Part shown: positions 20,968 to 59,107 of the stretch, piece by piece
Layout: each line of letters begins with the position of its first letter
Position numbering within the stretch: the stretch's first letter is position 1
NCBI RefSeq assembly: GCF_014610845.1
Contig: NZ_JABTCG010000006.1
Location: 1-64,000, forward strand
Source: Maribacter arenosus
Lineage (GTDB): Bacteria; Bacteroidota; Bacteroidia; Flavobacteriales; Flavobacteriaceae
Direction: 5' to 3'
Length of the DNA stretch: 64,000 nt
Position numbers and translations under genes: made by a program
The notes under the pieces: generated by a model
Database searches by the model: none
What the model saw: the letters and a program-made list of their open reading frames with translations, nothing else
Told to the model about the DNA's origin: nothing

Positions 20968-21042
20968 GGGCTCTTAGCTCAGCTGGTTCAGAGCACCTGC
21001 CTTACAAGCAGGGGGTCACTGGTTCGAATCCAGTAGGGCCCA
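20968..21042 (+). tRNA. tRNA-Val (anticodon UAC)
   Basis: The sequence folds into a standard cloverleaf. The acceptor stem is GGGCTCT/AGGGCCC (one G-U pair), the D-arm contains AGCTGGTTCAGAGC, the anticodon stem is CCTGC/GCAGG with loop CTTACAA (anticodon TAC), and the T-arm is ACTGG-TTCGAAT-CCAGT. No CCA is encoded, as is common in Bacteroidota. The 3' half serves as the attachment core of the adjacent element. A weak hairpin with T-run (about 21058-21082) may terminate transcription. Confidence 0.97.
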
Positions 21043-21043
21043 C
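21001..21043 (+). repeat. attL core of E1 (3' half of tRNA-Val)
   Basis: This 43-bp segment runs from the anticodon loop to one base past the discriminator and is identical to 59065-59107. Bases flanking on both sides differ between the copies (c versus g before, a versus t after), which defines the crossover limits. Confidence 0.9.
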
Positions 21044-21093
21044 ATCAATAAAGACAAGGCTTCCAAGAGATTGGGAGCTTTTTTGTTTTTAAA

Positions 21094-21115
21094 GGGGTGA
21101 AACAAGGGTGAAACA
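21094..21115 (+). repeat. Tandem 11-bp repeats, left arm sites of E1
   Basis: Two direct copies, GGGGTGAAACA and AGGGTGAAACA, stand head to tail 50 bases inside the left core. The same pair, with two changes, occurs next to the integrase gene at the other end. Integrase arm-type sites have this arrangement. Confidence 0.65.
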
Positions 21116-21148
21116 TTCATTCTTTGCATATATCTTCTTATCTTCATA

Positions 21149-21925
21149 ATGGGCTCTCATGCGATTATGAAATCTACCTTTAAAAATACAATTATTTTGC
21201 TTTTCCGGCGAATCGATAAAGCGGTTTTCGATGTGTATCGAACAGGCAGGGCATGGAAAACCAAGAAAGTGCCACATTGGGTCGTTTTGGTTTTGGCGCT
21301 CGGGTTATATTTTCTTATACTTTGGCAGGTATGGCCGTTCCTGTCCGCTTCTGAAACATTAGCCCTCAAATATTTTGGTTTTTTCTTGGTGCTGGTCTTT
21401 ACGATTTTGTTCTTGGGATTGGCAAAAATCTACGTTTCCAAGCTTCTTGATTATACAAGCCCCTATCCCATTCAAAATGAAAAAACCGGCGTAAGAGTTG
21501 ACAATAGGAGGTTTGAGACACCCTTTCGTTTCTCTCAAATAGCACATAGGATTGATTATGAAAAGGCCAATCTCTTCAGAGACTATCTAAGAACAAGCCG
21601 GGAGGACTACTTAAAACTGTTATCGGGGAAACAAGTTTCCGCAAAATTGACATGGATGCCTTTGACGGATAGAAAACTACCCAACTTCCGGCTTTTTTTC
21701 GAGTTTCTGAACCATATCTCCGAAGAGAATCTGGAAGGGTACTATGGGGAGAACCTGGTGCGCCTCTGTACTTATATCACCCTTAACTTTAAATCAAAGG
21801 AACACGAATGGACGGTAAAGCAACTTCAAAAGGCCCATTCGGGTTGGAAAAACTGCAATCCCAAACGGCGGATGGACCTGAAAATCGATATCGAAAACCA
21901 CCTTGTATTTCTTGGTCAATCATAA
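21149..21925 (+). CDS. Membrane protein of unknown function at the left end of E1
   Basis: The 258-residue product (a later start at 21167 is equally possible) has two membrane helices (about 45-65 and 75-97) and a soluble, basic C-terminal domain of about 150 residues. I recognise no domain. Its place immediately inside the attachment site, before the HTH and ATPase genes, suggests that it belongs to the element's core rather than to its cargo. Confidence 0.65.
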   Translation: MGSHAIMKSTFKNTIILLFRRIDKAVFDVYRTGRAWKTKKVPHWVVLVLALGLYFLILWQVWPFLSASETLALKYFGFFLVLVFTILFLGLAKIYVSKLLDYTSPYPIQNEKTGVRVDNRRFETPFRFSQIAHRIDYEKANLFRDYLRTSREDYLKLLSGKQVSAKLTWMPLTDRKLPNFRLFFEFLNHISEENLEGYYGENLVRLCTYITLNFKSKEHEWTVKQLQKAHSGWKNCNPKRRMDLKIDIENHLVFLGQS

Positions 21926-22061
21926 AATGAAAAGGAAAGTAAAGGAAAACAGAAGAAGCCTCTCCTTTACTTGATTTGCTGTGTTAGCGTATGCAAATTG
22001 CTTTCAAATAGTTCTATGGGCTAATCATGGAAAACGAGTGAAAACTTAATTTAAAAGCATT

Positions 22062-22373
22062 ATGAACAAGCAAAATTCTTCCCTGGTACAATTACTTCTC
22101 GAAAAAATAGACCATCTGGATGAAGCTGCCCTGGTCAAGAAAAAGGTCTTTAACGTTACGAACTTGCAAATGTATACGGGTTGGAGTCTTTCTAAAATCT
22201 ATAAGTTAACATCGGCGAGGTTGATTCCCTTTTCAAAGCCAACCAATGGGTCTCTGTTTTTTGAACGTGAAAAAATAGAGGACTGGCTGCTTCAAAATCC
22301 TTCCTATACCGAAGAGGAACTCCAAGAAAAAGTAAATTCCCATTTGAAAAAACATTATAGAGGTAACTCATAA
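22062..22373 (+). CDS. Helix-turn-helix DNA-binding protein (excisionase-like)
   Basis: A 103-residue protein with an N-terminal helix and a MerR/excisionase-type HTH: NVTNLQMYTGWSLSKIYKLT, a short wing, then SKPTNGSLFFEREKIEDWLL, where the target helix and W motif fit the HTH_17 family. Such proteins act as excision factors or local regulators in integrative elements. It is 9 bases upstream of the next gene, so the three genes 22062-23503 look like one operon. Confidence 0.72.
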   Translation: MNKQNSSLVQLLLEKIDHLDEAALVKKKVFNVTNLQMYTGWSLSKIYKLTSARLIPFSKPTNGSLFFEREKIEDWLLQNPSYTEEELQEKVNSHLKKHYRGNS

Positions 22374-22382
22374 GAAAGCACT

Positions 22383-22835
22383 ATGAAAGCCACCGATAGA
22401 AATTTTCAGGGTATTTGGATTCCCAAACTGATCTATTTGAATACCGAGGTTAATTGGTATGCCAAGATTCTATTTCTGGAAATCCACAGCTTTACAGAGC
22501 ACGGAAAAGAATGTTATATGTCCAACAAATACATTTCCTCATTTCTGAAAATCTCCGAAAGACAGGTCTCCCGATACATATCAGAACTAAAGGCATTGGG
22601 ATGGATCGAGGAAGCGTCTTTTGATGGGAGAAAGAGATACCTAAGAAGTATGCTCCAATTCAGTTTCCGAACGGTCGATTCAGACTTGACAATTCTGTCT
22701 AGGCAGCATCGAAAGTTTTATCGTAACAGCATTGACAAAAATGACCACCATAATAAACCAATTACAAAACAACATAAAAAATCAATTACTTCTTTAAAAG
22801 AAAATATTGAAAATAGAAGTCCAATTTTAGAATAG
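22383..22835 (+). CDS. Helix-turn-helix protein, probable replication/maintenance factor
   Basis: The 150-residue product starts GIWIPKLIYLNTEVNWYAKILFLEI and has a winged HTH in MSNKYISSFLKISERQVSRYISELKALGWI, like the N-terminal domains of phage and plasmid replication proteins (HTH_36 type). The C-terminus is basic and low-complexity. It sits between the excisionase-like gene and the DnaC/IstB-like ATPase gene, a layout I associate with element replication or maintenance. The exact function is inferred. Confidence 0.65.
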   Translation: MKATDRNFQGIWIPKLIYLNTEVNWYAKILFLEIHSFTEHGKECYMSNKYISSFLKISERQVSRYISELKALGWIEEASFDGRKRYLRSMLQFSFRTVDSDLTILSRQHRKFYRNSIDKNDHHNKPITKQHKKSITSLKENIENRSPILE

Positions 22836-22840
22836 GAAGC

Positions 22841-23503
22841 ATGAAAAAGGAAATATCAAGGCTGTTGAAAAAAGAAAAAGAAATGAAAGGGCCGCTATGC
22901 GAACCGGGTATTTTTAAAAAGCTTTTTTTCAAAATGGCACAAGAGTTTTATGCGAAAAGTAACACGGACTTTGAAGTGGATATTGGAAATAAGAATTTTC
23001 TAGGGCACTTCTGCAAATATTGGAACCGGGATATGGCCTTTGAAGTTTTGGAAAACATCTCCCTGAGAAAAGGGCTATTGGTGTTTGGTTCGTACGGGAC
23101 TGGGAAAACGTCAAGTTTTCAAATCATCCAAAATTTAGCAAAACACTATCAAGTTCGGGAACTGTGGTTTCCATCAATATCGACCCAGCAGGTAGTCGCC
23201 AAATTCAACCTGGAAAAGAATAAAGAGAACGTAATTCAATATTATTCCAGAGGGGTTTTTCTATTTGATGATCTGGGAGCTGAAATAGCCGGAAATAATA
23301 TCTATCAGTATGGAAAGGAAGAAGTGTTCGTACGCATTCTGCTAAACCGCTATCGGGATTTTGAAAGCCTGGGTACAAAGACGCATATCACAACTAATTT
23401 AAGCCTAGGTGAGATTGAACAACGGTATGGCAAGCAACTGGCCGACCGATTTATTAAAATGTTCAACTTGCTGAAGTTAGACGGACCAAGTAGGAGGAAG
23501 TGA
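22841..23503 (+). CDS. DnaC/IstB-like AAA+ ATPase
   Basis: The 220-residue protein has a Walker A motif in VFGSYGTGKTSSFQII (about 82), a Walker B in GVFLFDDLGAE (about 142) and a sensor-like THITTNLS (about 185). This fits the IstB/DnaC helicase-loader class. It is 5 bases after the HTH replication-type gene. A likely role is loading the host helicase on the element, or assisting recombination; transposon-type IstA is not present, so it is not an IS21 helper. Confidence 0.75.
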   Translation: MKKEISRLLKKEKEMKGPLCEPGIFKKLFFKMAQEFYAKSNTDFEVDIGNKNFLGHFCKYWNRDMAFEVLENISLRKGLLVFGSYGTGKTSSFQIIQNLAKHYQVRELWFPSISTQQVVAKFNLEKNKENVIQYYSRGVFLFDDLGAEIAGNNIYQYGKEEVFVRILLNRYRDFESLGTKTHITTNLSLGEIEQRYGKQLADRFIKMFNLLKLDGPSRRK

Positions 23504-23594
23504 CAAGGAAATGGAATACAGAATTAGCTTTAAATTTTACACTTTTCCTATAAAATGGAACAAGGTATTCCTGCAAGAAGTAAAACGAAGAAAA

Positions 23595-23667: not shown

Positions 23668-23726
23668 GATTTGGACTTCGCTCATCCGCTAAACTTGCGT
23701 CAAATAGGCTGGAAAGCCCTGAAAAC

Positions 23727-23896: not shown

Positions 23897-24463
23897 ATGG
23901 AAACAGATAACAAAAGGAAGAGCACATTTTCGGCCATAAGTATTAATCGAATAACCGCAGAGCGATTTCGGGCATACTCCAAGAGTGTTTCCAGATCACA
24001 TTCGGAAACCATGGATATTATGATCGACTTTTTCGAGAAAACGAAAATCACGCCGAGGAATGAAGTCATGATTTCATTTATCAGGTTCCAGAACTATATG
24101 ATAGGGCGGTTCGATTATTTGGAAGAACTGTTACGAACAATGGAGCGGGAACAAATAAGGCCGACCCATGATATGCTCAAAAGCCTATTCGAAGGAACGG
24201 CACTAAAGAAAAAAGAGCAACCCTTGCTTATGGACAAAAAGAACGTTAGAATGACCAAGGAGGAATGGGATATGGAAGAGGGAAAAATTTCGTTCGAAAA
24301 ATACCTTGGCGCTATAAAGGCCAGGGGCAGGGACAGACGCGTTTTTTCGAAAGTTCTAGACAGTATCACCAAAGTTGAACCCACCTTTAGCAAACCTTAT
24401 TTTAAATTGGAAATGGATGAAACAAAATTGGATGGTATCCGACAAGAGCTAAATGGGAAATAA
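23897..24463 (+). CDS. BfmA/BtgA-family mobilisation protein
   Basis: The 188-residue basic protein begins METDNKRKSTFSAISINR and continues with a helix-rich region (ITAERFRAYSKSVSRSHSETMDIMIDFFEK) that I associate with the BfmA/BtgA accessory mobilisation proteins of Bacteroides transmissible elements. These bind near the transfer origin and help the relaxase. Normally a relaxase gene follows; here 490 non-coding bases and then susC follow, so the relaxase is missing. The start at the ATG overlapping ACTGTAATGG fits the family N-terminus. Confidence 0.72.
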   Translation: METDNKRKSTFSAISINRITAERFRAYSKSVSRSHSETMDIMIDFFEKTKITPRNEVMISFIRFQNYMIGRFDYLEELLRTMEREQIRPTHDMLKSLFEGTALKKKEQPLLMDKKNVRMTKEEWDMEEGKISFEKYLGAIKARGRDRRVFSKVLDSITKVEPTFSKPYFKLEMDETKLDGIRQELNGK

Positions 24464-24493
24464 GGAAACAAACCTAGTTTTGCACAAGCAAGA

Positions 24494-24565
24494 TGCGCCC
24501 TATTTCGATTTCACTTTACGCTTACCTATCTGGACACTATAAAATCGAAATAGGATCCATGCGCA
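24494..24565. other. Conserved long stem-loop, E1 copy
   Basis: An outer pair TGCGC/GCGCA (24494-24498, 24561-24565) encloses a perfect 13-bp stem, CCTATTTCGATTT with AAATCGAAATAGG (24499-24511, 24542-24554), and a 30-base loop containing ACGCTTA, CT and ACACTA. A second copy lies at 62527-62600 with the same loop words but changed stems. It falls between the mobilisation gene and the susC promoter. Function unknown: origin, ssDNA structure or RNA are all possible. Confidence 0.6.
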
Positions 24566-24862
24566 AAGTTTAGGGGTAAGTATTTGGGAAGGAAAGTAGT
24601 CATAATCATTGGTAACAGGTAATTTTCCCTAATACCCTTCCTGCTACCTAACGGTCTAAAAAACGATTGTTTTACTAGACTATCCTATATTTATTTTTGA
24701 ATACTAATACACTCTATTTGCCCATTTTTGAATAACCCGGACGTTTTCATCCATTAAAAAACTCGGCGTTAATTTAGCCTAGATAGGATCCTAAATCCTT
24801 TGAACAATCTTACCTTAATTGGGAGCTCTTTTTAGTTAAAAGTTAAAAATCCCTTAAAATAT

Positions 24863-24894: not shown

Positions 24895-24895
24895 C

Positions 24896-24912: not shown

Positions 24913-24950
24913 ACATTATACACAACTAATTCAACCTAAAGACATTTAGT

Positions 24951-27900
24951 ATGAGAAAAAAGAAGTTTAATATCAATTATCTGGTATTGATTTTGTTCTT
25001 AAGTGTGTCCTTAATAAGTTATGGACAAGAGCAGACAATCACAGGAACTGTAGTTTCAGCGGCTGACAATGTCCCTTTGCCTGGGGCCAGCATCATTATA
25101 AAAGGAACTACCACGGGTACCCAAACCGATTTTGACGGAAACTACACCATCAATGCCAATAATGGCGATGTTCTGGTGTTTAGCTATTTGGGATATAATT
25201 CAGAGGAAGTTACTGTTTCTAATGAAACTACCCTCAATATAGCGCTTGCCGAAAACGCTGCTATGTTGGATGAAGTTGTTGTTACAGGTTATGGTAGCCA
25301 AACAAGGGGTACTTTGACCACATCGGTTTCTAAATTGGATACTGAAATACTCCAGACTTCAACCAGGTCGAATGCGGCAACCGCGTTACAAGGGACAATT
25401 GCAGGTTTAAGGGTTACGAATTCTACGGGGCAACCCGGTGCTACACCCCAAATTGTTCTACGGGGGGGCACCAATTTTGATGGCACGGGTTCTCCCTTAA
25501 TATTGATCGATGGTATACCAGGTTCATTTTTTGCTTTGAATTCTGACGATATCGAATCAATTGAAGTACTAAAAGATGCGGCTGCAACAGCCATTTATGG
25601 AGCAAGATCTGCCAATGGTGTTATTTTGGTAACCACTAAAACAGGTAAGGTTGGCAAAGCCTCCATTAATTACAGGTATAAGTACAGTATGAATAAGGAG
25701 CGGGATGATCAAAAATATCTTACCGCCGCGGATTTTTTGAATTATAATAGGCAAGGTCATGCTTATTCAGAACAGACTCGTGGTAACCCAAATTTTATTC
25801 GTCAATTTATTAATGGGGACAATTCTTTTGGAATAGGTGGCAACACTACGAATTCTCCCTTTACCACACAACTGCTAACCGCTGATAATCAATATCTTTT
25901 AAATCAACCGGGATGGAGTTCTATTCCTGATATTTTGGATCCTAGTCGGCAGATTCTGTTTTATGACAATAAAAACGTCGGTGACCGTATATATCAAGAT
26001 AGTGAAACAAAAGATCATTATTTATCCTTTGATGGTGGTAACGAAAAAGGCACTTATTATCTAGGTCTTGGACTTTTGGATAATGATGGTCTGATCTTGG
26101 GGTCGGGTTTTAAAAGATACTCAGGTAAATTCACGGGGTCTTATAGGATTTCTGACAAATTAAAAGTAAACTCCAATATCTTATACTCACATTCCAACTT
26201 GAGTTTAAGTCCTTTAGGAAGTGACGATACAGTGTTCAGAAGATTTCAGGGACAAGCACCTACTTCAAGGGATTATGACAACAATCCTGATGGCACTTTC
26301 TCCGATATATATGCCGTAGGTCAAAACCAAGGTTTTGGTAACCCCTTGTATTATCAGGACAAGTTTGTTCGTAAAAATCTGGAACAGCGTTTATCCGCTT
26401 CGGTGGGAATTGACTGGAATATTTTGGAAAACCTAATCTTCTCGGTAGACGGAAGCCATTTTACCATCAATAACCATAACGAGAGCTTTAATAGGGCTTA
26501 TAGGGTAGGAAGCACAACAGGTCCTTTACGTACAGGTCGTGAGGCATCGGTAAGCTTAGAAAGAACATTACGAAATCAGTTAACTGGGACTTTGAACTAT
26601 ACCAAAAAAATCGGGAACCATAATTTTAACGCCTTGATCGGCGCAGAGTATTTTAAGGATAATTTCTTTACCACTTCAGCGGGAACAAGAAATTCACCAA
26701 CAGATCTAATCGAAACCTTGAATGCAGGAGCCGAAGCCGATGGTATTCCTTTTAGTTTTGAAACAGAATATGTTATTGCCTCTGCCTTTGGTAGGTTACT
26801 GTATGATTATGATAATAGATATTTATTGAGTTTCACCTTTAGAAATGATGGTTCGTCTCGGTTAGGGAACAATAAAACTGACTTTTTCCCAGGGGTATCA
26901 GCAGGTTGGAATGTTCATAATGAAGACTTTTTCAGTGATTCATCATTAAGTAAAGTTGTCAGTAGATTAAAACCAAGATTAAGTTACGGGGTTAATGGTA
27001 ATCAGGACGTATTGAGCAATTATGGTGTTTTTGGAGCATACGGCAGTCAGGGTGTTTATAACGGACAAACAGGTTATGCCAACTCCCTTTTGCCCACATT
27101 GGATCTTCAATGGGAAAAGTCAACCACCTTTAATGTTGGTTTGGATATCTCGTTTTTTAATGAACGGCTTACGTTTATAACCGATGTTTATTCAAGGGAT
27201 ATCAAAGATAAACTCGCGGATCTTACCTTGCCTTTCTATACGGGATTCAGTAGTATATTAACGAATAACGGAACCATTAGAAACAAAGGTTTTGAGCTAC
27301 AGGTCAATGGGGATATCATTAGAAATGAAGATCTGACCTGGAATGTGGGTGCCACATTTACCACCAATAAGAATTATGTAATAGATCTTCCAGAAAATGA
27401 TAATGATTTGAATAGACAAGGGGGGGAATTAATATGGAACCCTAACAAGGGTGAAGAAGAATGGGTAGGTGGTTTTCAGGAAGGACAGCGATCGGGCAAT
27501 GATCTTGTCGTAGCTTTTGAACAAGAACGTATTTATGCCAATCAAGCCGAGGCTGATGCGGATAACTCAATAACCGATGAATTTATGCCTGCAGCGAGTA
27601 TCAATCAACGTTGGGCCGGTGATGCGAAATGGGTGGACCAAAATAGCGATGGAGTTATTAATGGACTTGATAGGAAAGTGATAGGACGAACCACGCCAAA
27701 CTTCATTGGAGGTTTAACGACGAGCTTAAACTATAAAAACTTCAGTTTATTTGTCAAGACCGATTTTGCCACCGGGCATTTGGTTTGGAACCATATTAGG
27801 GCCAAAGGGTATGGGCAGACACAGGGTAATCTGAATCAACCCATAGAAGTATTGGAGTCCTGGACACCTACTAATACAGATACCGATTGGCCACGTATGG

Positions 27901-28205
27901 TTTTTGTGAATGATGCAAAAAATGTGTGGAGAGGAAATGAATCTGAAAGTAGTTTGCAAAATTTTGGAAATGAACAATTCTGGGAAAAAGGTGATTATTT
28001 AGCGTTACGGGAAGTAACCTTAAATTACAATGTACCAACGGAATATTTTAATGATGCCATTAAAGGCCTCAGTATTTATGTAACAGGATCTAATCTGCAT
28101 TATTTTAAAAGTATGAGCGGTGATACCCCAGAAATTGGTGGCGTGCAATATGGAGCATTTCCTGTTCCAAAAACAATTACCATTGGACTAAACCTAACAT
28201 TTTAA
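24951..28205 (+). CDS. SusC-type TonB-dependent outer-membrane receptor
   Basis: The 1084-residue protein has a signal peptide (to about 26), a carboxypeptidase-regulatory-like domain (about 28-100), the SusC signature LDEVVVTGYG (106-115), a plug with GSPLILIDGIPG, and a long barrel ending in an aromatic residue (GLNLTF). It forms the outer-membrane channel that imports glycan pieces captured by SusD, driven by TonB/ExbBD. It is 11 bases upstream of susD. Context (sialidase, sialic acid lyase, shared operator) predicts sialylated or hexosamine-containing ligands. There is no N-terminal STN domain, so no anti-sigma signalling is expected. Confidence 0.95.
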   Translation: MRKKKFNINYLVLILFLSVSLISYGQEQTITGTVVSAADNVPLPGASIIIKGTTTGTQTDFDGNYTINANNGDVLVFSYLGYNSEEVTVSNETTLNIALAENAAMLDEVVVTGYGSQTRGTLTTSVSKLDTEILQTSTRSNAATALQGTIAGLRVTNSTGQPGATPQIVLRGGTNFDGTGSPLILIDGIPGSFFALNSDDIESIEVLKDAAATAIYGARSANGVILVTTKTGKVGKASINYRYKYSMNKERDDQKYLTAADFLNYNRQGHAYSEQTRGNPNFIRQFINGDNSFGIGGNTTNSPFTTQLLTADNQYLLNQPGWSSIPDILDPSRQILFYDNKNVGDRIYQDSETKDHYLSFDGGNEKGTYYLGLGLLDNDGLILGSGFKRYSGKFTGSYRISDKLKVNSNILYSHSNLSLSPLGSDDTVFRRFQGQAPTSRDYDNNPDGTFSDIYAVGQNQGFGNPLYYQDKFVRKNLEQRLSASVGIDWNILENLIFSVDGSHFTINNHNESFNRAYRVGSTTGPLRTGREASVSLERTLRNQLTGTLNYTKKIGNHNFNALIGAEYFKDNFFTTSAGTRNSPTDLIETLNAGAEADGIPFSFETEYVIASAFGRLLYDYDNRYLLSFTFRNDGSSRLGNNKTDFFPGVSAGWNVHNEDFFSDSSLSKVVSRLKPRLSYGVNGNQDVLSNYGVFGAYGSQGVYNGQTGYANSLLPTLDLQWEKSTTFNVGLDISFFNERLTFITDVYSRDIKDKLADLTLPFYTGFSSILTNNGTIRNKGFELQVNGDIIRNEDLTWNVGATFTTNKNYVIDLPENDNDLNRQGGELIWNPNKGEEEWVGGFQEGQRSGNDLVVAFEQERIYANQAEADADNSITDEFMPAASINQRWAGDAKWVDQNSDGVINGLDRKVIGRTTPNFIGGLTTSLNYKNFSLFVKTDFATGHLVWNHIRAKGYGQTQGNLNQPIEVLESWTPTNTDTDWPRMVFVNDAKNVWRGNESESSLQNFGNEQFWEKGDYLALREVTLNYNVPTEYFNDAIKGLSIYVTGSNLHYFKSMSGDTPEIGGVQYGAFPVPKTITIGLNLTF

Positions 28206-30777: not shown

Positions 30778-30859
30778 ATAAGCTCAATTTTCTAAAATTC
30801 ATAAACAACATCAATGCAATGCTTTTTGCAAGTTGTTTTTTATTGCAGACCAACTTAAG

Positions 30860-48523: not shown

Positions 48524-48566
48524 TAGGTATGATGATTAATCGCTATATGCGAATAGCTTTTCTATG

Positions 48567-49082: not shown

Positions 49083-49116
49083 GACTTAAATGGGTTATTT
49101 TTAAATATGAGGATTC

Positions 49117-49962: not shown

Positions 49963-49980
49963 GACTTTAAGGTTTTGATT

Positions 49981-50789: not shown

Positions 50790-50801
50790 GTTTGTTGATT
50801 T

Positions 50802-52094
50802 TTAAGGGAAAATTCCCCGTTGCACATATGCCTTCTCAAGACGCTCAATGGCGATAATGAATGCGGCGGTCCGCATATCCACTTTTCTGCTTTTTGCAGT
50901 TTCCATAACTTTGGAAAACGATTCTTTCAGTTTCTTCTCCAGTTTGGCCATGACCTCATCCAATTGCCAGATTTCGCCGTTACGGTTCTGTAGCCATTCG
51001 AAATAACTACCGATAACGCCACCGGAATTGCAAAGGATATCGGGAATGATTTCAATGCCTTTATTTAATAGAATTTTCTCCGCCTCCACATCGGTAGGCC
51101 CATTGGCCCCTTCGGCAATCAGATAGGCTTTTATGCGTTGTGCGTTTTCTGCGGTAATCTGATTACCCAACGCGGCTGGGACGATGATATCGCAATCCAA
51201 ACCGAAAAATTCCGAACTTTCTATGGGTCGGGCATCGGCAAAACCGCCGATACTTCGGTTATTCGACTCTGAAAAGGCTAGAAGACCTTCCGCCGAAATA
51301 CCGTTTTCATTGAGAATGGTTCCCGAGGCATCTTGAACGGCGGTCAAAACTGCACCTTCTTTTTCCAGGAAATGGGAAGTCCAGTACCCCACATTTCCAA
51401 AGCCTTGTACGATGAACTTTTTATCCTTTAGTTCAACATTCTTTCGTTCCGCCCAAAACTTGATGGTTAGAAATACCCCATAGCCCGTGGCCCGATCTCG
51501 TCCTTCCGAACCGCCTGCACCAATGGGTTTACCGGTAACCACGTGCATATTCGTAGAGCGTTCGGCAGGTGGTTTAGTGGACATATAGGTGTCCAATATC
51601 CACGCCATGGTTTGCGGATTGGTGTTCACATCTGGCGCGGGAATATCCAATTCAGGCCCGATGTTATCGCCCAAGGCATATGTAAATCGACGGGTTATCC
51701 TTTCCAGTTCGGTATCGGAATATTTTTTTGGATCCAACTGTATTCCCCCTTTTGCTCCGCCATAGGGCAAGCCAGCCAACGAAGTTTTCCAGGTCATCCA
51801 CATGGCCAATGCCCTTGCGGCATCGATATCGACAGTCTCGTGATAACGTAGCCCTCCTTTATAGGGACCCAATGCATTGTTATGTTGAACGCGGTAGCCC
51901 GTAAAGACCTCTACTTCACCATTATCCATACGGACCGGAAAATGTACGACCAGTTCATTGTTGGTCACTTCCAATATTTTACGGATATTAGGATTGAGGG
52001 TGATGATATCGGCAGCATTATCGAACTGTCGCATTACGTTGTCCAACATCCCCTGTTTGGGCTGTTTTTTTGGTGAAGCTAATTTTGTTGTCAT
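50802..52094 (-). CDS. Glutamate dehydrogenase-type enzyme (Glu/Leu/Phe/Val family)
   Basis: The 430-residue dehydrogenase has the hexameric GDH motifs: FPVRMDNGEVEVFTGYRVQH, GGLRYH, the catalytic PYGGAKGGI, DIPAPDVNTNPQTMAWILD, the Rossmann FIVQGFGNVGYW and LIAEGANGPTDVEAE. It interconverts glutamate and 2-oxoglutarate with ammonia. It is distinct from the backbone enzyme at 14911. Carriage inside a sigma54-controlled stress block hints at a nitrogen or osmolyte role, which is inference. Confidence 0.93.
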   Translation of the reverse strand: MTTKLASPKKQPKQGMLDNVMRQFDNAADIITLNPNIRKILEVTNNELVVHFPVRMDNGEVEVFTGYRVQHNNALGPYKGGLRYHETVDIDAARALAMWMTWKTSLAGLPYGGAKGGIQLDPKKYSDTELERITRRFTYALGDNIGPELDIPAPDVNTNPQTMAWILDTYMSTKPPAERSTNMHVVTGKPIGAGGSEGRDRATGYGVFLTIKFWAERKNVELKDKKFIVQGFGNVGYWTSHFLEKEGAVLTAVQDASGTILNENGISAEGLLAFSESNNRSIGGFADARPIESSEFFGLDCDIIVPAALGNQITAENAQRIKAYLIAEGANGPTDVEAEKILLNKGIEIIPDILCNSGGVIGSYFEWLQNRNGEIWQLDEVMAKLEKKLKESFSKVMETAKSRKVDMRTAAFIIAIERLEKAYVQRGIFP

Positions 52095-52095
52095 T

Positions 52096-52338
52096 TTATT
52101 TTATTAAAAGTTCTTTATTTTTATTTGCCTGCCTGCCGTAGGCAAGGTGGTCACTTGCCGTTTCTACTGAGACCATAACCATTGGTTCGTTATCCTTATC
52201 CAAGTGATGTACATATTCGCTACACGAGCTTATACTGCTCATATCCGTTGTCAACGAGCAATGAGGGGCATGCCTGCACGTTGAACATATACTCCGTTTA
52301 TAATTTTTCATTTTTTTTAATTTATTTAACGTGGTCAA
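52096..52338 (-). CDS. Small cysteine-rich protein
   Basis: The 80-residue product (a later start at M10, 52311, is possible) contains CSTCRHAPHCSLTTD followed by SSCSEY, four cysteines that could bind a metal. No family recognised. It ends one base before the GDH gene and starts 9 bases after the four-helix-bundle protein gene, so it is part of the block's transcript. An imperfect inverted repeat, TTGCCT/AGGCAA, lies in its 3' part (about 52127-52147). Confidence 0.55.
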   Translation of the reverse strand: MTTLNKLKKMKNYKRSICSTCRHAPHCSLTTDMSSISSCSEYVHHLDKDNEPMVMVSVETASDHLAYGRQANKNKELLIK

Positions 52339-52347
52339 AAACTTTAT

Positions 52348-52971
52348 TTAGCGTACTGCATGCATTGTTTTTACAGGATAGAAAATCAAGAACAATATGG
52401 CCACTCCTATAATGATCATAAAAGCGACTTCAAGTTTTGAGAGTAGAATGTTCATGCCCAGCGACTTGTTGGAAAGTTCCGTCAGTTGCTCGCTTTCCGA
52501 AAGTTGTATTTTGGCAAGGGCATCTAAATTTCGTTGCATCTCGTCCAGCGTTTTAAGGGCAACGATGCCCAAATCCGCTTCGATTTCATTGGAAGGTTGT
52601 ACAATTTTGTCTTCTAGCTCTTGTAGTTTGGAAAATTGTCTGTTCAATTCGTTGAGAAGACTTGATTCTTTTTGGGTCAGTTTGGTTATTCCAAAATCGA
52701 TGAGTAATAGTTGTGCTTTTTCATTTTCGGATGTAATGGTATTATCGTTATAGTTTTTAATCAACTTGAGTTTTTTGTTATGGAATATTGTGCTTAACTG
52801 GTAGATATAATCCTGAACCACCACACGATCTTTATATACAGAATTGACGGTAGTCTGAATCGTCGAAAAATGTCTTGAGTCCAATCGATTAGATCCCAAG
52901 ACCAGAAGAAAAGCTATGGTCATTATTAAACCTATTTGTATACGTTGTGCTACTGAAAATTTTGTAAACAT
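52348..52971 (-). CDS. Membrane protein with four-helix-bundle sensor domain
   Basis: The 207-residue protein has two membrane helices (about 12-28 and 180-200) flanking a periplasmic, helical domain of 150 residues (STIQTTVNSVYKDRVVVQDYIYQLSTIFHNKKLKLI) like the 4HB_MCP sensor domain. The cytoplasmic part after helix 2 is only about eight residues: no HAMP, methyl-accepting or kinase domain is present. It may be a partner subunit for the nearby histidine kinase, which lacks its own sensor membrane domain; that link is inference. Confidence 0.7.
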   Translation of the reverse strand: MFTKFSVAQRIQIGLIMTIAFLLVLGSNRLDSRHFSTIQTTVNSVYKDRVVVQDYIYQLSTIFHNKKLKLIKNYNDNTITSENEKAQLLLIDFGITKLTQKESSLLNELNRQFSKLQELEDKIVQPSNEIEADLGIVALKTLDEMQRNLDALAKIQLSESEQLTELSNKSLGMNILLSKLEVAFMIIIGVAILFLIFYPVKTMHAVR

Positions 52972-53118
52972 GTTTTCTGTTTTTCTCGATTATTTTTCTA
53001 ATTGTTATTAGATGGGGCTATAATCCGTGGAAAAAAATCCACCCGGTCCTGGTCTTTTATTTATTTGAGCAAATCAAGATCTAATGAACCGGATGGATTG
53101 CAACAACCAATCAAAAAG

Positions 53119-53484
53119 TTATTTTTCGGCCTGTAATTCGCCAGACTGTATGGCTTGGTCAAAATCGGCCCCTATCACGGTATGGCTGCCAAAGAAACGC
53201 CCGCCGTCTTTGCGCTTGATCTTAACCTGTGTAGTACCGTCCTTCTTTTCCTTAATGGACGTTATCACAACCCTGTTGCCTTCCACAAGTTTGTAATTCG
53301 CTCGACCACCTCGTTTGATGATAAAATTTGGTCTGGGAAAATTTATGTGTTTGTACGTGTTCGTTTCAGGCTTTCCTATCTCGAAAACGTCGCCGACTTC
53401 GACATCGTTAGATACTGATTTTGCATTATCTTGTGCATTGAGCACACTTATTGAAAGTAAAAGGGCAAATACATACTTGAGCAT
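53119..53484 (-). CDS. Small secreted protein of unknown function
   Basis: The 121-residue product has a signal peptide (KYVFALLLSISVLNAQ, cleavage near 18) and a small basic beta-rich domain (PNFIIKRGGRANYKLVEGNRVVITSIKEKKDGTTQVKIKRKDGG). No family recognised. It lies between a GreA/Rnk-like gene and the four-helix-bundle protein gene, with gaps of 59 and 147 bases. Confidence 0.6.
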   Translation of the reverse strand: MLKYVFALLLSISVLNAQDNAKSVSNDVEVGDVFEIGKPETNTYKHINFPRPNFIIKRGGRANYKLVEGNRVVITSIKEKKDGTTQVKIKRKDGGRFFGSHTVIGADFDQAIQSGELQAEK

Positions 53485-53543
53485 AATTATATATTTAAGG
53501 TTAAAGAATTATTATATTTTTATGGTAAAATCTTTTTGAATGT

Positions 53544-53963
53544 CTATTCTGAAATATTCAATTCGATCTGTGTTCTAGATTGGACCACTTTTTCAATCTT
53601 CAACAACAGAACATTACCTGTGAGACCATACCTTATTGTGTCACCTTCTGAAAGTCCAACAACAGATGCGCCCAATGTGCTTATGACCGAGATTTTGTCA
53701 TTTTTGATATTTTCCTCATAGGGCGGTACCAACTGTAAGGTTTCATGCCATCCACATGTACTGGACAATGTTACAGTGGAGTAAATTTGCACGATATCAG
53801 TAGGTATGTCATCCCGATCGACTATCAGCGCCTCGGACATATTATCTGTAAGGATATCCAAGGTGTTCTTATGAACATAATTCTCAAGCATCCCATTCAT
53901 TTCTTGATAGTACTTTATCATCACAAAATTTTCCTTTTTAAATATTAGACTGCCGTATTTCAT
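53544..53963 (-). CDS. GreA/Rnk-like C-terminal-domain protein, copy 2
   Basis: The 139-residue protein starts MKYGSLIFKKENFVMIK, nearly the same as copy 1, and has DIPTDIVQIYSTVTLSST, LQLVPPYEENIKNDKISVISTLGASVVGLSEGDTIRYG. The central motif S-x-LGA-x-V-x-G-x-x-EGD is the GreA C-terminal signature. The catalytic coiled coil is lacking. Same size as copy 1 and 66 bases downstream of copy 3. Confidence 0.8.
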   Translation of the reverse strand: MKYGSLIFKKENFVMIKYYQEMNGMLENYVHKNTLDILTDNMSEALIVDRDDIPTDIVQIYSTVTLSSTCGWHETLQLVPPYEENIKNDKISVISTLGASVVGLSEGDTIRYGLTGNVLLLKIEKVVQSRTQIELNISE

Positions 53964-54029
53964 CTTCTCTTTCCTTTAATTTTTTATATTATTATCCCTT
54001 TTCTCTGTGTTCGTAGACAAAGCTCTATT

Positions 54030-54506
54030 CTATATTTTGGGAAGCATCTCATTCAAAACATCCTCAGATATATATTCCTTTATTTGGCCGTGGCTCTGCT
54101 CTACCTTTTCGATTAGCAATGGAATGGAACCTATGGGCGTTCCATAGTTAAACGTTTCGCCCTCTGAAAGACCGATAACGGATGCTCCCAAAGCACTCTG
54201 TACCGAAAGCCGATTCCTTTTAATATCCATTTCGTAAGGCAATACCATAAGAAAGGTTTGGCGCCATTCCGATGCGGAGGCTACTGTAACCCACGAATAC
54301 AGACGAACGATATCTTCGGGCATATCCTCAAAATCCAAAAACGAAGCATCTTCCATTTTCTCTTCCAAAGTCTCCAACGCATCCTTATGGGAATAATCTT
54401 CGATCAAATGGTTCATATGCCGATGCTTAAGAATCATCTCATAGTCTTTTTTTGCCAAAACAAGACTATCATATTTCGTTGTCCTTTGTTTTATTAATTC
54501 GTTCAT
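54030..54506 (-). CDS. GreA/Rnk-like C-terminal-domain protein, copy 3
   Basis: I choose the ATG at 54506 (158 residues, MNELIKQRTTKYDSLVLAKKDYE), which aligns with the other two copies; an upstream ATG at 54554 adds 16 unrelated residues. The core is DMPEDIVRLYSWVTVASASE, LMVLPYEMDIKRNRLSVQSALGASVIGLSEGETFNYG. It is the first gene of the minus-strand block, downstream of a candidate sigma54 promoter (54641-54655). Confidence 0.8.
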   Translation of the reverse strand: MNELIKQRTTKYDSLVLAKKDYEMILKHRHMNHLIEDYSHKDALETLEEKMEDASFLDFEDMPEDIVRLYSWVTVASASEWRQTFLMVLPYEMDIKRNRLSVQSALGASVIGLSEGETFNYGTPIGSIPLLIEKVEQSHGQIKEYISEDVLNEMLPKI

Positions 54507-54640
54507 TTCTAGTTTTATTCCTGTCCTTTTTACCTCCAATATTTCCCAGACCATCCTTCTTTCTCAGATGGTTCTTGGCACTTTGGATCGAAGGAAAAAA
54601 TAACAGCATTTTTTGATTTCTTAAGTTCCATTCATACAAG

Positions 54641-54655
54641 GCAAATGACATGCCC
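54641..54655 (-). promoter_or_regulatory. Candidate sigma54 promoter of the stress block
   Basis: The minus strand reads GGGCATG-TCAT-TTGC, matching the sigma54 consensus TGGCAYR-N4-TTGC except at the first base. It points at the first GreA/Rnk-like gene, about 135 bases away, next to a sigma54 activator gene. The word TGACATGCC (plus strand) occurs here (54646) and exactly 21 bp further upstream (54667). Confidence 0.5.
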
Positions 54656-54784
54656 AAAAGAGTGGCTGACATGCCAAATATTTACAACTAATTGATATTC
54701 AATTAGTAATAAACGATTTAAAAAAGATGTGATAAAAACAAACTGGGGAGAATTTCCCCGGTCGGGGAGTTTTGAACCAGTTGA

Positions 54785-56110
54785 TCAGTTCAGTTTATCG
54801 CGTAAGGTCTTACGGTCGATTTGGAGGATTTCGGCGGCTTTGGTCTTGTTGCCACCAACATTTGCAAGTACACGTTTTACATATTCTTTTTCCATTTCCC
54901 GAAGGGGAATAAAACCCGTAGCGGGAAAATCTATTTTATATTTTAAATTTTCCGGAAGGTCTTTAACATTGATGGTGCCATCGCACATGATGACCGCCCG
55001 TTGGATAATATTTTCCAATTCCCGAATATTTCCCGGCCAATGGTAGCGTTGTAAAACCTGTAGGGCATCGGGGGAAATCCTCATAAGGCGGTCTTTATAT
55101 TCCACTCCATATTTTTGCACGAATTTATCGACCAATAGAGGAATATCCGATTTACGTTCCCGAAGTGGGGGCACATTGATTTCCACTACGGTCAGGCGAT
55201 AGTAAAGATCTTCGCGGAAATCCTTTTTCTTAATATCTTCCAATAGGCTGCTATTTGTAGCGGCAATAATACGGATATCCACTTTTTCAGCCTTTCGGGA
55301 ACCCACTTTTGTAATCTCCTTTTCTTGAAGGGCGCGGAGAAGCTTCATCTGAACGGAAAGGGGTGCCGTACCTATTTCGTCCAAAAAGAGGGTACCGCCT
55401 TGAGCAGCCTGAAAGAATCCGCTTCTGTTTTCGTTGGCACCGGTAAAGGCTCCTTTGGTATAACCAAAAAGTTCGGCCTCCAATAAATTTTCAGGAATGG
55501 CACCGCAGTGTACGGCTACAAATGGGGCACGTGAAAATTTGCCGGAATAATGGATGGCCCGCGCCACCAATTCCTTGCCCGTACCACTTTCACCCTGGAT
55601 CAATACCGTAGCCTTGTTGTTCTTTACCCTATCGATGATGTCCATGATTTTTTGAAAAGCTTCCGATGCGCCGATCATATCGGCATAGCTATTGCTCGTA
55701 GTACTATCAATTATAGGTTGCCGTTTTTTTCTTTTTGAATCGCTCACTAAGGACTTTTGAACGGCTAGTTTCAGTTCGTCCTTGGTAAAGGGTTTGGTCA
55801 AGTAGTCCGTCGCACCTGATTTGATGACCTCTAAAGCACCATCCACCGAGGGATAACCGGTAATTACCAGCTTGGGCATTTCAGGGTAATGTTCATCGGC
55901 AAACTTTACTAACTGCAGTCCATCAACTTCGGGCATTTGAATATCGGTAATCAACAAGTCGATATAAGTGTCCTTTAAAATATATAAAGCTTCCTTGACC
56001 GAAACGGCCTTATAAGTATGATAGTCCATTGACTGTAGGTGGCGCTGCAACAATTCCAGAATATCGATATCGTCATCGACCAATAGTATATTTTCTTTTC
56101 GAAGTCCCAT
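54785..56110 (-). CDS. Sigma54-dependent response regulator (NtrC family)
   Basis: The 441-residue activator has a receiver domain with acceptor Asp56 (DLLITDIQMP), an AAA+ domain with Walker A GESGTGKE (173-180), the sigma54-contacting GAFTGA (220-225) and LFLDEIG, and a C-terminal Fis-type HTH (NVGGNKTKAAEILQIDRKTLR). All features for opening sigma54 promoters are intact. It is transcribed with the histidine kinase gene two bases upstream and probably controls the downstream stress block. Confidence 0.95.
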   Translation of the reverse strand: MGLRKENILLVDDDIDILELLQRHLQSMDYHTYKAVSVKEALYILKDTYIDLLITDIQMPEVDGLQLVKFADEHYPEMPKLVITGYPSVDGALEVIKSGATDYLTKPFTKDELKLAVQKSLVSDSKRKKRQPIIDSTTSNSYADMIGASEAFQKIMDIIDRVKNNKATVLIQGESGTGKELVARAIHYSGKFSRAPFVAVHCGAIPENLLEAELFGYTKGAFTGANENRSGFFQAAQGGTLFLDEIGTAPLSVQMKLLRALQEKEITKVGSRKAEKVDIRIIAATNSSLLEDIKKKDFREDLYYRLTVVEINVPPLRERKSDIPLLVDKFVQKYGVEYKDRLMRISPDALQVLQRYHWPGNIRELENIIQRAVIMCDGTINVKDLPENLKYKIDFPATGFIPLREMEKEYVKRVLANVGGNKTKAAEILQIDRKTLRDKLN

Positions 56111-56112
56111 AT

Positions 56113-57201
56113 CTACAATTTAGGTAAATCTATGGTAAAAATTGTTCCTTTCGGGGTATTTGAACTGTGCGAAATTGTTCCCTTATGGCTATTGATTATA
56201 CCGTGCACAACGCTTAGACCGAGTCCGGAACCATCTCCCAAAGGTTTTGTTGTAAAAAAGGGTTCAAAAACCTTATCCTCATTTTCAGGGTCGATACCCG
56301 GGCCTTCATCGGCAATTCGAATCTGTATACTTTTACCATTACTATCAACTGCAACATGAATCTTTCCCGCTTTAGGGGAAAAATAGATGGCGTTCATAAT
56401 CAGGTTGAAAAGAACTTGGGTCAATTGTACGGTATCTGCTCGGAGTTCGATTTTTTGTTCATTAAAAGACTTGATCAGTTTGATGTTTTTAGTCCGTAAA
56501 GAAGGACCAAGTAGCTTCAATACATTTTCAACCACTGGAATCAATGCTACAGACTTCATTTGCTGTGGCATTTCACAGGCGAAGAACATCAATTTTTTGA
56601 CCACCTCACGACTGAAAATCGCATTATCCACAATTTTATCCAAATCCCTACTGGCTTTCGGGTCTGTTACCCTTTCTTTCAAAAGTTCGGTAAAACCCAA
56701 AATATTGGCTAATGGAGTATTGAGTTCATGTGCAATGCCTGCGGTGATCTCCCCTAATATATGTAAACGGTCTGCACGCTCCACTTGACGTTTAATGGCC
56801 GCTTCACTATCATGTACCTGCTTTCTTTCCAACAAGTTTCCAACAGCCAATGCTACGTTCTCCAATAACTTTTCCTCTTCCTCCAAAAAGTCGGCTTGTT
56901 CATATTTTTTCTTTGGATATCCTACTTTAATAAATCCTTCAAGTTTGTTGAAAACCTTAATATCGGATTTTATATAAATCATGTCAGCCTTGAATTCTTC
57001 GGTCTTGATGTCATAATCGCCACTTTTTAATGCCACCTCGGTATCATGCTCAAATTGCCATGCTTTTTTCAGACAATAGGCAATGGCTTCAAGGGAAGTT
57101 CCTAAAAGATCGTAATCGGAATTTACAATAATTGACGTGACCTCGTAAAGACAGGTAAGTTCTTTAATTCGTTCTTTTAATTTTGCTTCTGTGCTGACCA
57201 T
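56113..57201 (-). CDS. Soluble sensor histidine kinase, partner of the sigma54 regulator
   Basis: The 362-residue kinase has an N-terminal GAF-like domain (about 15-125: VTSIIVNSDYDLLGTSLEAIAYCLKKAWQFE), a HisKA segment with His158 in GIAHELNTPLANILGF, and an ATPase domain with NLIMNAIYFSP, IADEGPGIDPENEDKVFEPFFTTK and GSGLGLSVVHGI. No membrane helix is seen, so it senses a cytoplasmic signal or docks to a membrane partner. It sits two bases before the regulator gene. Confidence 0.93.
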   Translation of the reverse strand: MVSTEAKLKERIKELTCLYEVTSIIVNSDYDLLGTSLEAIAYCLKKAWQFEHDTEVALKSGDYDIKTEEFKADMIYIKSDIKVFNKLEGFIKVGYPKKKYEQADFLEEEEKLLENVALAVGNLLERKQVHDSEAAIKRQVERADRLHILGEITAGIAHELNTPLANILGFTELLKERVTDPKASRDLDKIVDNAIFSREVVKKLMFFACEMPQQMKSVALIPVVENVLKLLGPSLRTKNIKLIKSFNEQKIELRADTVQLTQVLFNLIMNAIYFSPKAGKIHVAVDSNGKSIQIRIADEGPGIDPENEDKVFEPFFTTKPLGDGSGLGLSVVHGIINSHKGTISHSSNTPKGTIFTIDLPKL

Positions 57202-57703
57202 TTCAATCTTCTCATTGAATAAGTGAAGTTCTTAAAAATATGTTTGGAACGGAAATTTACTTTTGAAAATATTACTGCGTTTTACCTAACTCCTGCGGTA
57301 GTCGGGCAATCCATTCCCTACAATCCTCACACAGCGACCCTACATTGACCATTAATCAGAGATATTCGCGTTAAAGCTTTTTAGCCAAGGTACAATAGTC
57401 CTATTTTCATCTTTTTTAAAAGTTTTGTTAATTAACCTTTTATGGAACTCGGTTTAGCTAATTCTAAGTGTTCAGTTAGTTTCTAGGCAATACCGGAAGC
57501 ACTTATCTTTTCTTTCATTCCGCAGGCTACATTCCCTGAAAAATAAGAGCTTTCGATTCCTCGCCATACAGGGTGTGATTGATCAACCAATTGTTTTGAA
57601 TTAAATATTATCGATCACAACCAGTATTGGTTGCCAACTCTTTATCCCAGATTTAGTTCAACCATCACTAAGAAAAAGGTGAAGGAATGTTTTTCTACGG
57701 CCA
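57202..57703. other. Intergenic region between histidine kinase and E1 integrase
   Basis: About 500 bases without a credible ORF. It should contain the promoter of the kinase-regulator pair. I see no strong hairpin or RNA. The base composition resembles decayed coding sequence, but I could not match a protein. Confidence 0.4.
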
Positions 57704-58915
57704 TCACCATAGGAGTACTTCCACAGCCTCATCCAATACTTCTGCGCCAAACTCACGGACATAGGCCTTAGTGGTTAATACACTTTGGTGGCCAAGCGTC
57801 TCTCCAATAACATCAATACTAACCCCTTTTTCACGGAGGCACATGGCAAAACTATGCCTAGCCACATAACTAGTCACATTTTTGGTTATACCCGCTTTCT
57901 CGGCTAGTATTTTTAAGCTTTTATTGTAAAGTCCAAGTGTTTTGTGTTTTCGATTTTCAATTTGAGTAGGGGTCATACGGTCATTTAACAAAATCGGGAA
58001 GACGTAGTTGGTATCCGTTCTGTTCTGATTATAATAATCAAGGATTTCTTTGACTGGAGGTACAATCTTTATGGAAAAATTCCCTTGGGTTTTAGCCCTT
58101 GCGTAAGTGATTCGCTTATTGGAAATATCAGACCATGTTAAACGCATCATATCCGCAAAATTCATACCTCTTGTATAGAAGCTGAATAAAAAATAGTTCT
58201 TTGCATTAATAAGTTGAATATCCTCCCCACAATCCAAAGTCTTGAATGTTTCGATTTCTGCCAAATTCAAAGCGTGTTTTATTCTCTTTCCTTTAAGCTT
58301 CGAGATTTTATATTTATGAAAAGGATAAATATGTTGCTTTATCAAGTCCCTTCGGACAGCAAGGTTGAAAATGGTGCGAAGACTTCGCATGCGCACTGAG
58401 ATACCTCCATTAGAACCACCTCGACTTCTAAGAAATACCTCGTACTTATCGAGAAATGTGACATTGATTTCCCGCATATATAAGATAGGCTTCTTGTGAA
58501 ATAGTTTTAATGAATTTATAGTGTCTTTATTTGTACGGGCATAACCCGTTCTTCCCGAAATTTCTAGATCATTGACTACTGAAGTCCAAAAGGAAAATAA
58601 ATCGATTTTACTTCTTTTTGAACCGAAACGGAAGCGATGCTCAAATTCCTGTAGAGTAAAATCGACATCGTCAATGTTAAAATCGGAAATTATATTTCGA
58701 GCTTTAATTTTTAAAGTATCCAACAATCGATTATTCTGCATTGCATTGGGGTGTCTGGTCTTAAAACAATGTTCGTTTTCATCCCAAAGCTCATTTTTTA
58801 CAGATAAACCTGTGGAAAGAATTTTTTTCCGACGGTCTTTTAGCACTTGTAAAACGATGGAATGTTCGCCTTCAGCGTTAGCTTTTTTCTTCAATTTTAA
58901 TTTAATACTTACCAT
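57704..58915 (-). CDS. Tyrosine recombinase (integrase of E1)
   Basis: I prefer the ATG at 58915 (403 residues, MVSIKLKLKKKANAEGEHS), the usual start of Bacteroidota integrases; an in-frame ATG at 58993 would read through the arm repeats. The N-terminal arm-binding and core-binding (SAM-like) domains precede the catalytic domain, with RGMNFADMMRLTW (first Arg), the VARHSFAMCLREKG block (H-x-x-R region), LGHQSVLTTKAYVREF (His and nucleophile Tyr). It would cut and rejoin the 43-bp tRNA-Val core. It lies about 150 bp inside the right att site and points away from it. Confidence 0.94.
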   Translation of the reverse strand: MVSIKLKLKKKANAEGEHSIVLQVLKDRRKKILSTGLSVKNELWDENEHCFKTRHPNAMQNNRLLDTLKIKARNIISDFNIDDVDFTLQEFEHRFRFGSKRSKIDLFSFWTSVVNDLEISGRTGYARTNKDTINSLKLFHKKPILYMREINVTFLDKYEVFLRSRGGSNGGISVRMRSLRTIFNLAVRRDLIKQHIYPFHKYKISKLKGKRIKHALNLAEIETFKTLDCGEDIQLINAKNYFLFSFYTRGMNFADMMRLTWSDISNKRITYARAKTQGNFSIKIVPPVKEILDYYNQNRTDTNYVFPILLNDRMTPTQIENRKHKTLGLYNKSLKILAEKAGITKNVTSYVARHSFAMCLREKGVSIDVIGETLGHQSVLTTKAYVREFGAEVLDEAVEVLLW

Positions 58916-58929
58916 GCTTTTTTCTTGAG

Positions 58930-58951
58930 GGGTGAAACATAGGTGAAACAA
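58930..58951 (+). repeat. Tandem 11-bp repeats, right arm sites of E1
   Basis: GGGGTGAAACA and TAGGTGAAACA stand head to tail 14 bases before the integrase start and match the left arm pair (21094-21115) at 20 of 22 positions, in the same orientation. Confidence 0.65.
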
Positions 58952-59064
58952 ATTGCACCTTTTTTGAAAACGCATGAAAACAAGTAAAAACAAAAACCCA
59001 ATAAATACAAGGGTTTCCAGAGATTGAAGAAAAATGCAAACAAATGAAAAGACAAATATTCGCG

Positions 59065-59107
59065 CTTACAAGCAGGGGGTCACTGGTTCGAATCCAGTAG
59101 GGCCCAC
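59065..59107 (+). repeat. attR of E1 and attL of E2: copy of the tRNA-Val 3' half
   Basis: Exact 43-bp copy of 21001-21043, without the 5' half of a tRNA. It ends E1 and, given the second integrase and second arm-repeat pair to the right, begins E2. Confidence 0.9.

Follow-up and report, generated by a model that had tools for sequence, protein, structure and literature searches.

The window analysed here comprises 64,000 nucleotides of Maribacter arenosus, a member of the Flavobacteriaceae (positions 1 to 64,000 of contig NZ_JABTCG010000006.1, assembly GCF_014610845.1), and contains at 21044-59107 a 38-kb unit that carries an integrase, replication and mobilisation genes, and a locus for the use of sialoglycans. 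The unit lies directly behind the sole tRNA gene of the window, tRNA-Val(TAC) (20968-21043, forward strand), the attachment gene, which was located by ARAGORN, by Rfam (RF00005) and by a repeat search. The 3' 43 bp of this gene (att1, 21001-21043, forward strand) recur as an exact direct copy at 59065-59107 (att2, forward strand), 38,064 bp from att1, and this 43-mer was the sole direct repeat family reported when positions 19000-62000 were searched for repeats of at least 25 bp with a seed of 16. The repeat adjoins a tyrosine integrase gene, the arrangement that marks an integrative element of a tRNA 3' end.

A search of the organism's own genome (G000; 24 contigs, of which C21 bears the window) revealed a third exact copy, att3, at C21:64092-64134, 92 bp beyond the window, and a second integrase gene lies between copies two and three. 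The region is therefore read as two stacked units, of 38,064 bp (att1-att2) and 5,027 bp (att2-att3), in tandem behind one tRNA-Val(TAC), and a single simple 38-kb island was rejected. The next tRNA-Val, with anticodon GAC, starts at C21:68979. The original prediction, made from the letters of the window by themselves, had described a single 38-kb element with exact tRNA-Val copies at both ends, an integrase at the right, mobilisation genes at the left and a sialidase-to-lyase pathway with SusC/D, a regulator and esterases between them. All of these features are present, as is a bounded tRNA-integrated unit, but the third att copy, the second integrase and a second cargo module had been missed. 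The contig itself opens inside a 5S rRNA gene (window 1-82; the Rfam match is cut at its 5' end), and the start of the window is therefore probably an assembly break at an rRNA operon.

Backbone genes of the two units

The conserved backbone of the 38-kb unit consists of about 3.6 kb at the left and about 1.6 kb at the right, with the cargo between. Five genes on the forward strand make up the left part and encode a 258-aa protein of no family (21149-21925), an HTH_17 or excisionase (Xis)-like protein that rests in part on weak profile evidence (22062-22373), a replication initiation-like protein with an HTH_36 domain (22383-22835), a DnaC-like helicase loader (22841-23503), and a mobilisation protein of the BfmA/BtgA family (23897-24463; NF041200). 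At the right end lies the gene for the tyrosine integrase Int1 (57704-58993, reverse strand), which has three Pfam integrase-type domains; it is listed with a TTG start, and its relative in G298, a genome of another genus, suggests a start 26 codons later. The second unit, of 5.03 kb (59108-64000 within the window, ending with att3 at C21:64134), encodes a 520-aa protein for which no family was found (59501-61063, reverse strand) and a second tyrosine integrase, Int2 (62672-63928, reverse strand), 31% identical to Int1. In both units an integrase gene thus lies immediately inward of the right att copy, and both hold a copy of a hairpin of about 95 bp. The two integrase genes are uninterrupted reading frames, and their products retain the R(GMN), RHS, GH and Y blocks found in all seven aligned integrases; these blocks have a catalytic role.

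Pfam scans of the 31 open reading frames (ORFs) of the 38-kb unit, five of which have no Pfam family, returned no relaxase family, the hallmark of a canonical integrative and mobilisable element (IME), and no genes of a type IV secretion system (T4SS), the hallmark of an integrative and conjugative element. Virion or packaging genes were likewise not seen in the Pfam scans, nor among the nine proteins that PHROGs covered, and a prophage or satellite was rejected on this ground. No transfer enzyme was recognised on the island, and its movement would need a helper. In the organism's own genome, a search confined to the relaxase family PF03432 matched on contigs C20, C3 and C12 only. The lack of a recognised relaxase, together with the lack of a second copy of the unit in the 12 genomes of the genus, could also mean that a single insertion has decayed into an immobile island whose cargo is now resident. 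We consider this unlikely, since both integrases are intact with their conserved blocks, the att copies are exact, and the five left genes are open frames.

Relatives at other tRNA genes and at the tRNA-Val site

Relatives of Int1 at E <= 1e-100 occur in 18 of 349 genomes of the family, G000 included, and the closest outside the window is that of G298 (84%). On contig C27 of G298, the five left genes follow tRNA-Asn, with protein identities of 75% for the 258-aa protein, 89% for the Xis-like protein, 80% for the replication initiation-like protein and 79% for BfmA/BtgA, a range of 75-89% overall, and 81.7% nucleotide identity over 3.6 kb; a search with the DnaC-like protein also returned G298, at 87% and 80%. 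Its contig C17 has an integrase frame that is open for 402 aa; before it stand the 12 bases that also precede att2 in the window (59053-59064), and an exact 43-bp copy of that tRNA-Asn. Three more distant relatives have integrases in the range of 46-49%: one in G011 between tRNA-Asp repeats of 45 bp (17.9 kb, with a relaxase), one in G001 between tRNA-Asn repeats of 43 bp with one mismatch (18.2 kb), and one in G199 between tRNA-Asn repeats of 43 bp (11.9 kb). The Val, Asn and Arg-type repeats begin two bases before the anticodon, and the Asp repeat reaches two bases further. The 38-kb element is a member of a family that sits in several tRNA genes.

Loci encoding a relative of the window's sialidase number 71 in genome_contigs, of which 49 are in Flavobacteriaceae, a family described as mainly marine (PMC4324048); the trait is thus not special to gut or oral Bacteroidota, for which, according to the original prediction, it is normally discussed. 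An ORF resembling Int1 or Int2 was found in three of the 71 (L119, L140, L182), in BLAST scans with the window's and a few related proteins, which other integrases can escape. One of them, L140 from Pseudozobellia sp. WGM2, holds a relative of the window unit that is at least 17 kb long. Its order is a piece of a DnaC-like gene (69% over 122 aa), BfmA (30%), the hairpin, lyase (55%), SusC (86%), SusD (82%), GntR regulator (61%), epimerase (75%), sialidase (74%), a NanM-symporter (82%), a GH20-like protein (30%), an integrase (47%) and a 43-bp copy of a tRNA-Arg(TCT)-type 3' part (17132-17174), which has 5 mismatches in 43 bases to the tRNA-Arg(TCT) of L159. Sialic-acid cargo is therefore found twice in the element family, and the original proposal of a tRNA-integrated element is supported, with a close backbone relative in tRNA-Asn of another genus and a more distant sialic-acid-bearing relative in Pseudozobellia.

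In L182 of Sediminicola luteus, the sialic-acid locus is immediately preceded on its left by an Int2-like integrase (57%) and by two fragments that resemble tRNA 3' parts (L182:4760-6600), and L119 of Maribacter sp. 4G9 has a different integrase (24% to Int1) in the same position (L119:51-1313). The epimerase and NanM-symporter proteins of L154 (Arenibacter certesii) and L155 (Maribacter ulvicola) are nearly identical, with summed end branches of about 0.03 and 0.01, which looks like a recent transfer between genera. Proximity to a tRNA gene was rejected as a general sign of mobility, since only 4 of the 71 loci have a tRNA in the fetched DNA and no general link appeared. Plasmid records gave no match to the hairpin, and their matches to the sialidase (22 records) and to Int1 (167 records) all fell below 60% identity.

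The tRNA-Val site itself was sought in the 12 genomes of the genus with a query of tRNA-Val plus upstream DNA; all matched, G007 and G009 only with tRNA-like pieces. The interval from this tRNA-Val to the next, readable in eight genomes, varies from about 1.0 kb (G003), 2.8 kb (G006) and 4.1 kb (G005) to 24.1 kb (G002), 27.3 kb (G011), 47.9 kb (G000), 48.7 kb (G004) and 56.2 kb (G001). In G001 and G004 (L046-L049, L050-L052) the 49-56 kb intervals hold several SusC- and SusD-like proteins and no second exact att copy, which suggests that the interval is a hot spot for such loci.

Ten downstream stretches were aligned with the DNA right of att1, att2 and att3, with 60 shuffles each as the null. 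An empty site was expected to read from the tRNA straight into DNA right of the last att copy. The DNA behind tRNA-Val in G011 does so: it aligns with the right-hand flank of att3 (score 75 against a null maximum of 31) but with neither that of att1 nor that of att2, and by this alignment the junction is the predicted empty site, its own 43-mer differing at 3 bases. It is the only one of the ten stretches to do so, and the other nine gave a mixed result. Three, from G001, G004 and G010, resemble the DNA right of att1 (57, 74 and 63; null maxima 28, 35 and 31), and we interpret these as old left ends or as a shared tRNA terminator. Another G008 contig, which has a 43-bp copy of its own, aligned with the right-hand flanks of att2 (81) and att3 (58). 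The remaining five, from G002, G003, G005, G006 and G008 (a stretch of just 109 bp), aligned with none of these flanks. A short G008 contig carries an exact 43-bp att copy at L056:244-286, with flanks like those of the 5-kb unit.

The G011 junction, and the fact that att3 is as exact a copy of att1 as att2 is, would also fit a reading in which the whole stretch from att1 to att3 (43.1 kb) is one composite mobile unit with att2 as an internal scar. Each unit has its own hairpin and its own integrase inside its right att copy, though, and the right end of the 38-kb unit matches that of G298 up to the repeat, and we regard a composite as distinctly unlikely.

The cargo and its origin

The sialic-acid genes lie on the forward strand, except for that of the regulator. 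They encode a SusC-like TonB-dependent transporter (24951-28205), a SusD-like protein (28217-29719), a NanA-type lyase of the DHDPS family (29872-30777), a YhcH/YjgK/YiaL protein (30833-31309), a GntR/FCD regulator (31299-32021, reverse strand), a GlcNAc (N-acetylglucosamine) 2-epimerase (32172-33329), a sialidase with BNR repeats (33342-34475), a GH20 hexosaminidase (34518-36578), a NanM-type epimerase joined to a sodium:solute symporter (NanM-SSF, 36490-39174), a protein of the sialic acid acetylesterase (SASA) family (39179-40687), a GDSL esterase (40699-41805), a GH2 beta-galactosidase (41951-45253) and a 485-aa protein for which no family was found (45540-46997). With a SusC/D pair beside sialidase, lyase, epimerase and transporter, the set constitutes a SusC/D-type sialic-acid locus. 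A kinase for GlcNAc would need to come from the chromosome. The organism's own genome has five ROK-family matches, on C1, C18 and C19.

The right-hand 10 kb or so of the cargo is a second module, for stress and redox functions (47270-57201, reverse strand). It comprises an MscS-type channel, DUF3124 and Usp proteins, a glutamate dehydrogenase, a sigma-54 response regulator, a histidine kinase, small unknowns, and three proteins with GreA/GreB C-terminal domains (50370-54554). The glutamate dehydrogenase shares 84% identity with single loci in G001-G004 and equally with G232, a genome of another genus; a smaller syntenic set of GreA/GreB, glutamate dehydrogenase and stress genes occurs in the congeners G001-G004 and a fuller one in G232. 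The G232 homologues of this module lie about 6.5 kb from a sialic-acid locus, beside which no tRNA-Leu repeat was found and where another sialidase-like protein (29%) is encoded.

The origin of the sialic-acid genes was examined with quick gene trees of the 30-34 best relatives, supported by SH-aLRT only. The epimerase of G000 groups with those of G005 and G010 (support 97), and the G009/G011 pair is not joined to them with support; the sialidase groups with G005 and G010 (99) and then with G009 and G011 (96). SusC groups with L140, G232, L139 and L119 (99), and NanM-SSF with the G232 group (96), G005/G010 standing next outside (99). The best identities among the compared loci also point two ways, to congeners for NanA (G005, 77%) and SASA (G010, 72%), and elsewhere for SusD and GH20 (G232, 85% and 70%) and GntR (Snuella, 75%). 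Because trees and best identities divide the cargo genes in this way, the locus is, as far as such comparisons reach, a mosaic of congeneric and foreign parts, and import of the present locus en bloc was rejected. In a species proxy of four genes and ten genomes (midpoint root; G008 and G010 less than half filled), G000 is sister to G001-G004 plus G006 (95), and in these five genomes, of which G006 is 68% complete, no close sialidase relative was found.

These trees also bear on whether the locus was resident in the chromosome of the genus and the mobile genes arrived separately around it. The grouping of epimerase and sialidase with G005 and G010 would fit such a history, as would the presence of the core in the same tRNA-Val interval of G011. 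We nevertheless regard it as very unlikely, since the locus lies between att1 and att2 and not beyond att3, the trees place SusC and NanM-SSF with other genera, and the related Pseudozobellia element also carries a sialic-acid locus. In G009 the core has the same gene neighbours as in G011, on an 11-kb contig. In G005 the lyase, epimerase, sialidase, NanM-symporter and SASA genes lie 209 bp behind tRNA-Asp, and no tRNA-Asp repeat was found beside them.

The original prediction had further proposed that sialic acid use can be gained in one step. In that form the proposal is not supported, because epimerase and sialidase group with congeners that have the core outside such a unit, and SusC and NanM-SSF with other genera; moreover, neither a relaxase nor T4SS genes were recognised, and the kinase would have to be supplied by the chromosome.

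A candidate transfer origin and the proposed life of the element

The hairpin sequence is non-coding and lies on the forward strand at 24494-24588 in the 38-kb unit and at 62528-62623 in the 5-kb unit. It has 17 matches in 9 of the 12 genomes of the genus (E <= 0.01; two only near the limit). In seven of these loci it lies about 3 bp or less from the end of a MobC gene with a relaxase gene before it, and four more have a BfmA-like gene within about 1 kb; in the other six, the 5-kb unit included, thirteen reference proteins detected no mobilisation gene. The relaxase locus on C3 of the organism's own genome carries the same hairpin, and those on C20 and C12 lack it within the fetched flanks. 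In an alignment of 21 copies, from which the two weakest of the 17 matches (L278, L279) were dropped, a 20-pair structure has 92.8% of its cells paired, and 43 cells show changes on both sides; the same sequences served to read the structure and to score it, and pair 16-66 is unpaired in 17 of the 21. None of 500 shuffles reached its covariation, and slid structures scored far lower. A covariance model run over 1.57 Mb from 83 sources recovered only the window copies and that of L140, all in the training set, besides one match at E 0.61. Over 58 further sources it recovered nine copies, eight of them training sequences and one new, in G009; this copy (L080:140-233) adjoins an integrase (26% to Int1).

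The place of the hairpin after mobilisation genes suggests that it is a candidate origin of transfer (oriT). That it is instead an RNA, a terminator or a replication signal is a serious contender, which we put somewhat short of an even chance: compensatory changes fit RNA as well as single-stranded DNA, and the hairpin follows MobC stop codons. The 5-kb unit, however, which has no recognised mobilisation gene, retains it, and for this sequence the window gave no Rfam family at gathering score. A match close to the 62.5-kb copy, obtained with a permissive threshold (E 0.62), was discarded as a chance hit.

We think it likely that the stretch 21044-59107 is an integrative element that targets tRNA genes, has no recognised relaxase gene, may be mobilised in trans and carries an assembled cargo. 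Int1, helped by the Xis-like protein, would recombine the 43 bp from the anticodon loop to the 3' end of the tRNA, which would be rebuilt both at insertion and at excision. The excised circle may replicate by way of the Rep/DnaC pair, and through BfmA and the hairpin it may gain access to a relaxase and pore supplied by a co-resident element. In the recipient, sialidase, SusC/D, NanM-symporter, lyase and epimerase would, judging from their families, turn sialoglycans into GlcNAc for chromosomal enzymes, and the recipient would also gain the stress/redox module. The 5-kb element, with its own integrase and hairpin, sits behind the 38-kb unit at the same site.

Several observations weigh against this interpretation. 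The same 38-kb unit was found in no other genome, and within the 12 genomes of the genus, full-length relatives of Int1 outside the window reach at most 48% (pieces 58-61%). The two ends of the G298 relative lie on separate contigs, C27 and C17, and their union into one element is our inference; the left end of the Pseudozobellia unit falls outside the fetched DNA, as its own tRNA would. The hairpin occurs in only one of the 70 other sialidase loci scanned with the model (L140), and most sialidase loci are thus not seen in a hairpin-bearing mobile setting. The tRNA-Val interval of G011 holds lyase, epimerase, sialidase and NanM-symporter (74-81%) and lacks another att copy, and so matches in part a finding that the original prediction had counted against itself, namely the locus at the same place without flanking tRNA copies.

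The closest parallel in Vibrio is VPI-2, an island of 57 kb in tRNA-Ser that its host requires to grow on sialic acid (PMC3014918). It too is a tRNA-inserted island for sialic-acid catabolism with a tyrosine integrase and a directionality factor; it differs in host, tRNA and size, and the present unit is further set apart by its SusC/D-type locus, its different integrase, its relatives in several tRNA genes and its candidate site for mobilisation. A 2017 account of IMEs describes relaxase-less forms in Firmicutes and Proteobacteria, and counts the few Bacteroidetes IMEs then known as canonical, all with their own relaxase (PMC5704250). The non-canonical IMEs and mobile genomic islands named there from Firmicutes and Proteobacteria resemble the present Bacteroidota unit in having their own integrase, a gene like that of a recombination directionality factor (RDF), no recognised relaxase, and a possible oriT with an accessory protein. 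NBU1, Tn4555 and Tn4399 are likewise integrated elements mobilised in trans by a helper, and NBU1 has a tyrosine integrase and an RDF, but all three encode a MobP relaxase (PMC5704250), and none was recognised here. Within the family, the 2015 report on the fish isolate Flaviramulus ichthyoenteri Th78 describes sialic acid genes, including a sialic acid lyase and sialidases, but with a TRAP transporter, and the word "horizontal" appears nowhere in its main text (PMC4324048). The open-licence literature searched yielded no report of a mobile sialic-acid locus in Flavobacteriaceae.

Because a related island in another genus has a similar gene set beside a different tRNA copy, feeding on sialic acid probably travels between genera. 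In a bolder reading, which we hold to be rather less likely than not, a family of relaxase-less integrative elements in Flavobacteriaceae would move in trans by way of a structured oriT, switch tRNA targets while keeping a crossover in the anticodon loop, and repeatedly acquire entire sialoglycan loci and redistribute them between genera. The hairpin offers a testable transfer site for elements without a recognised relaxase, and a pair of integrases that are 84% identical, each beside a copy of a different tRNA gene but in one register, opens target switching by tyrosine integrases to test. For the Flavobacteriaceae, the 38-kb element would provide a concrete vehicle for the spread of sialoglycan feeding.

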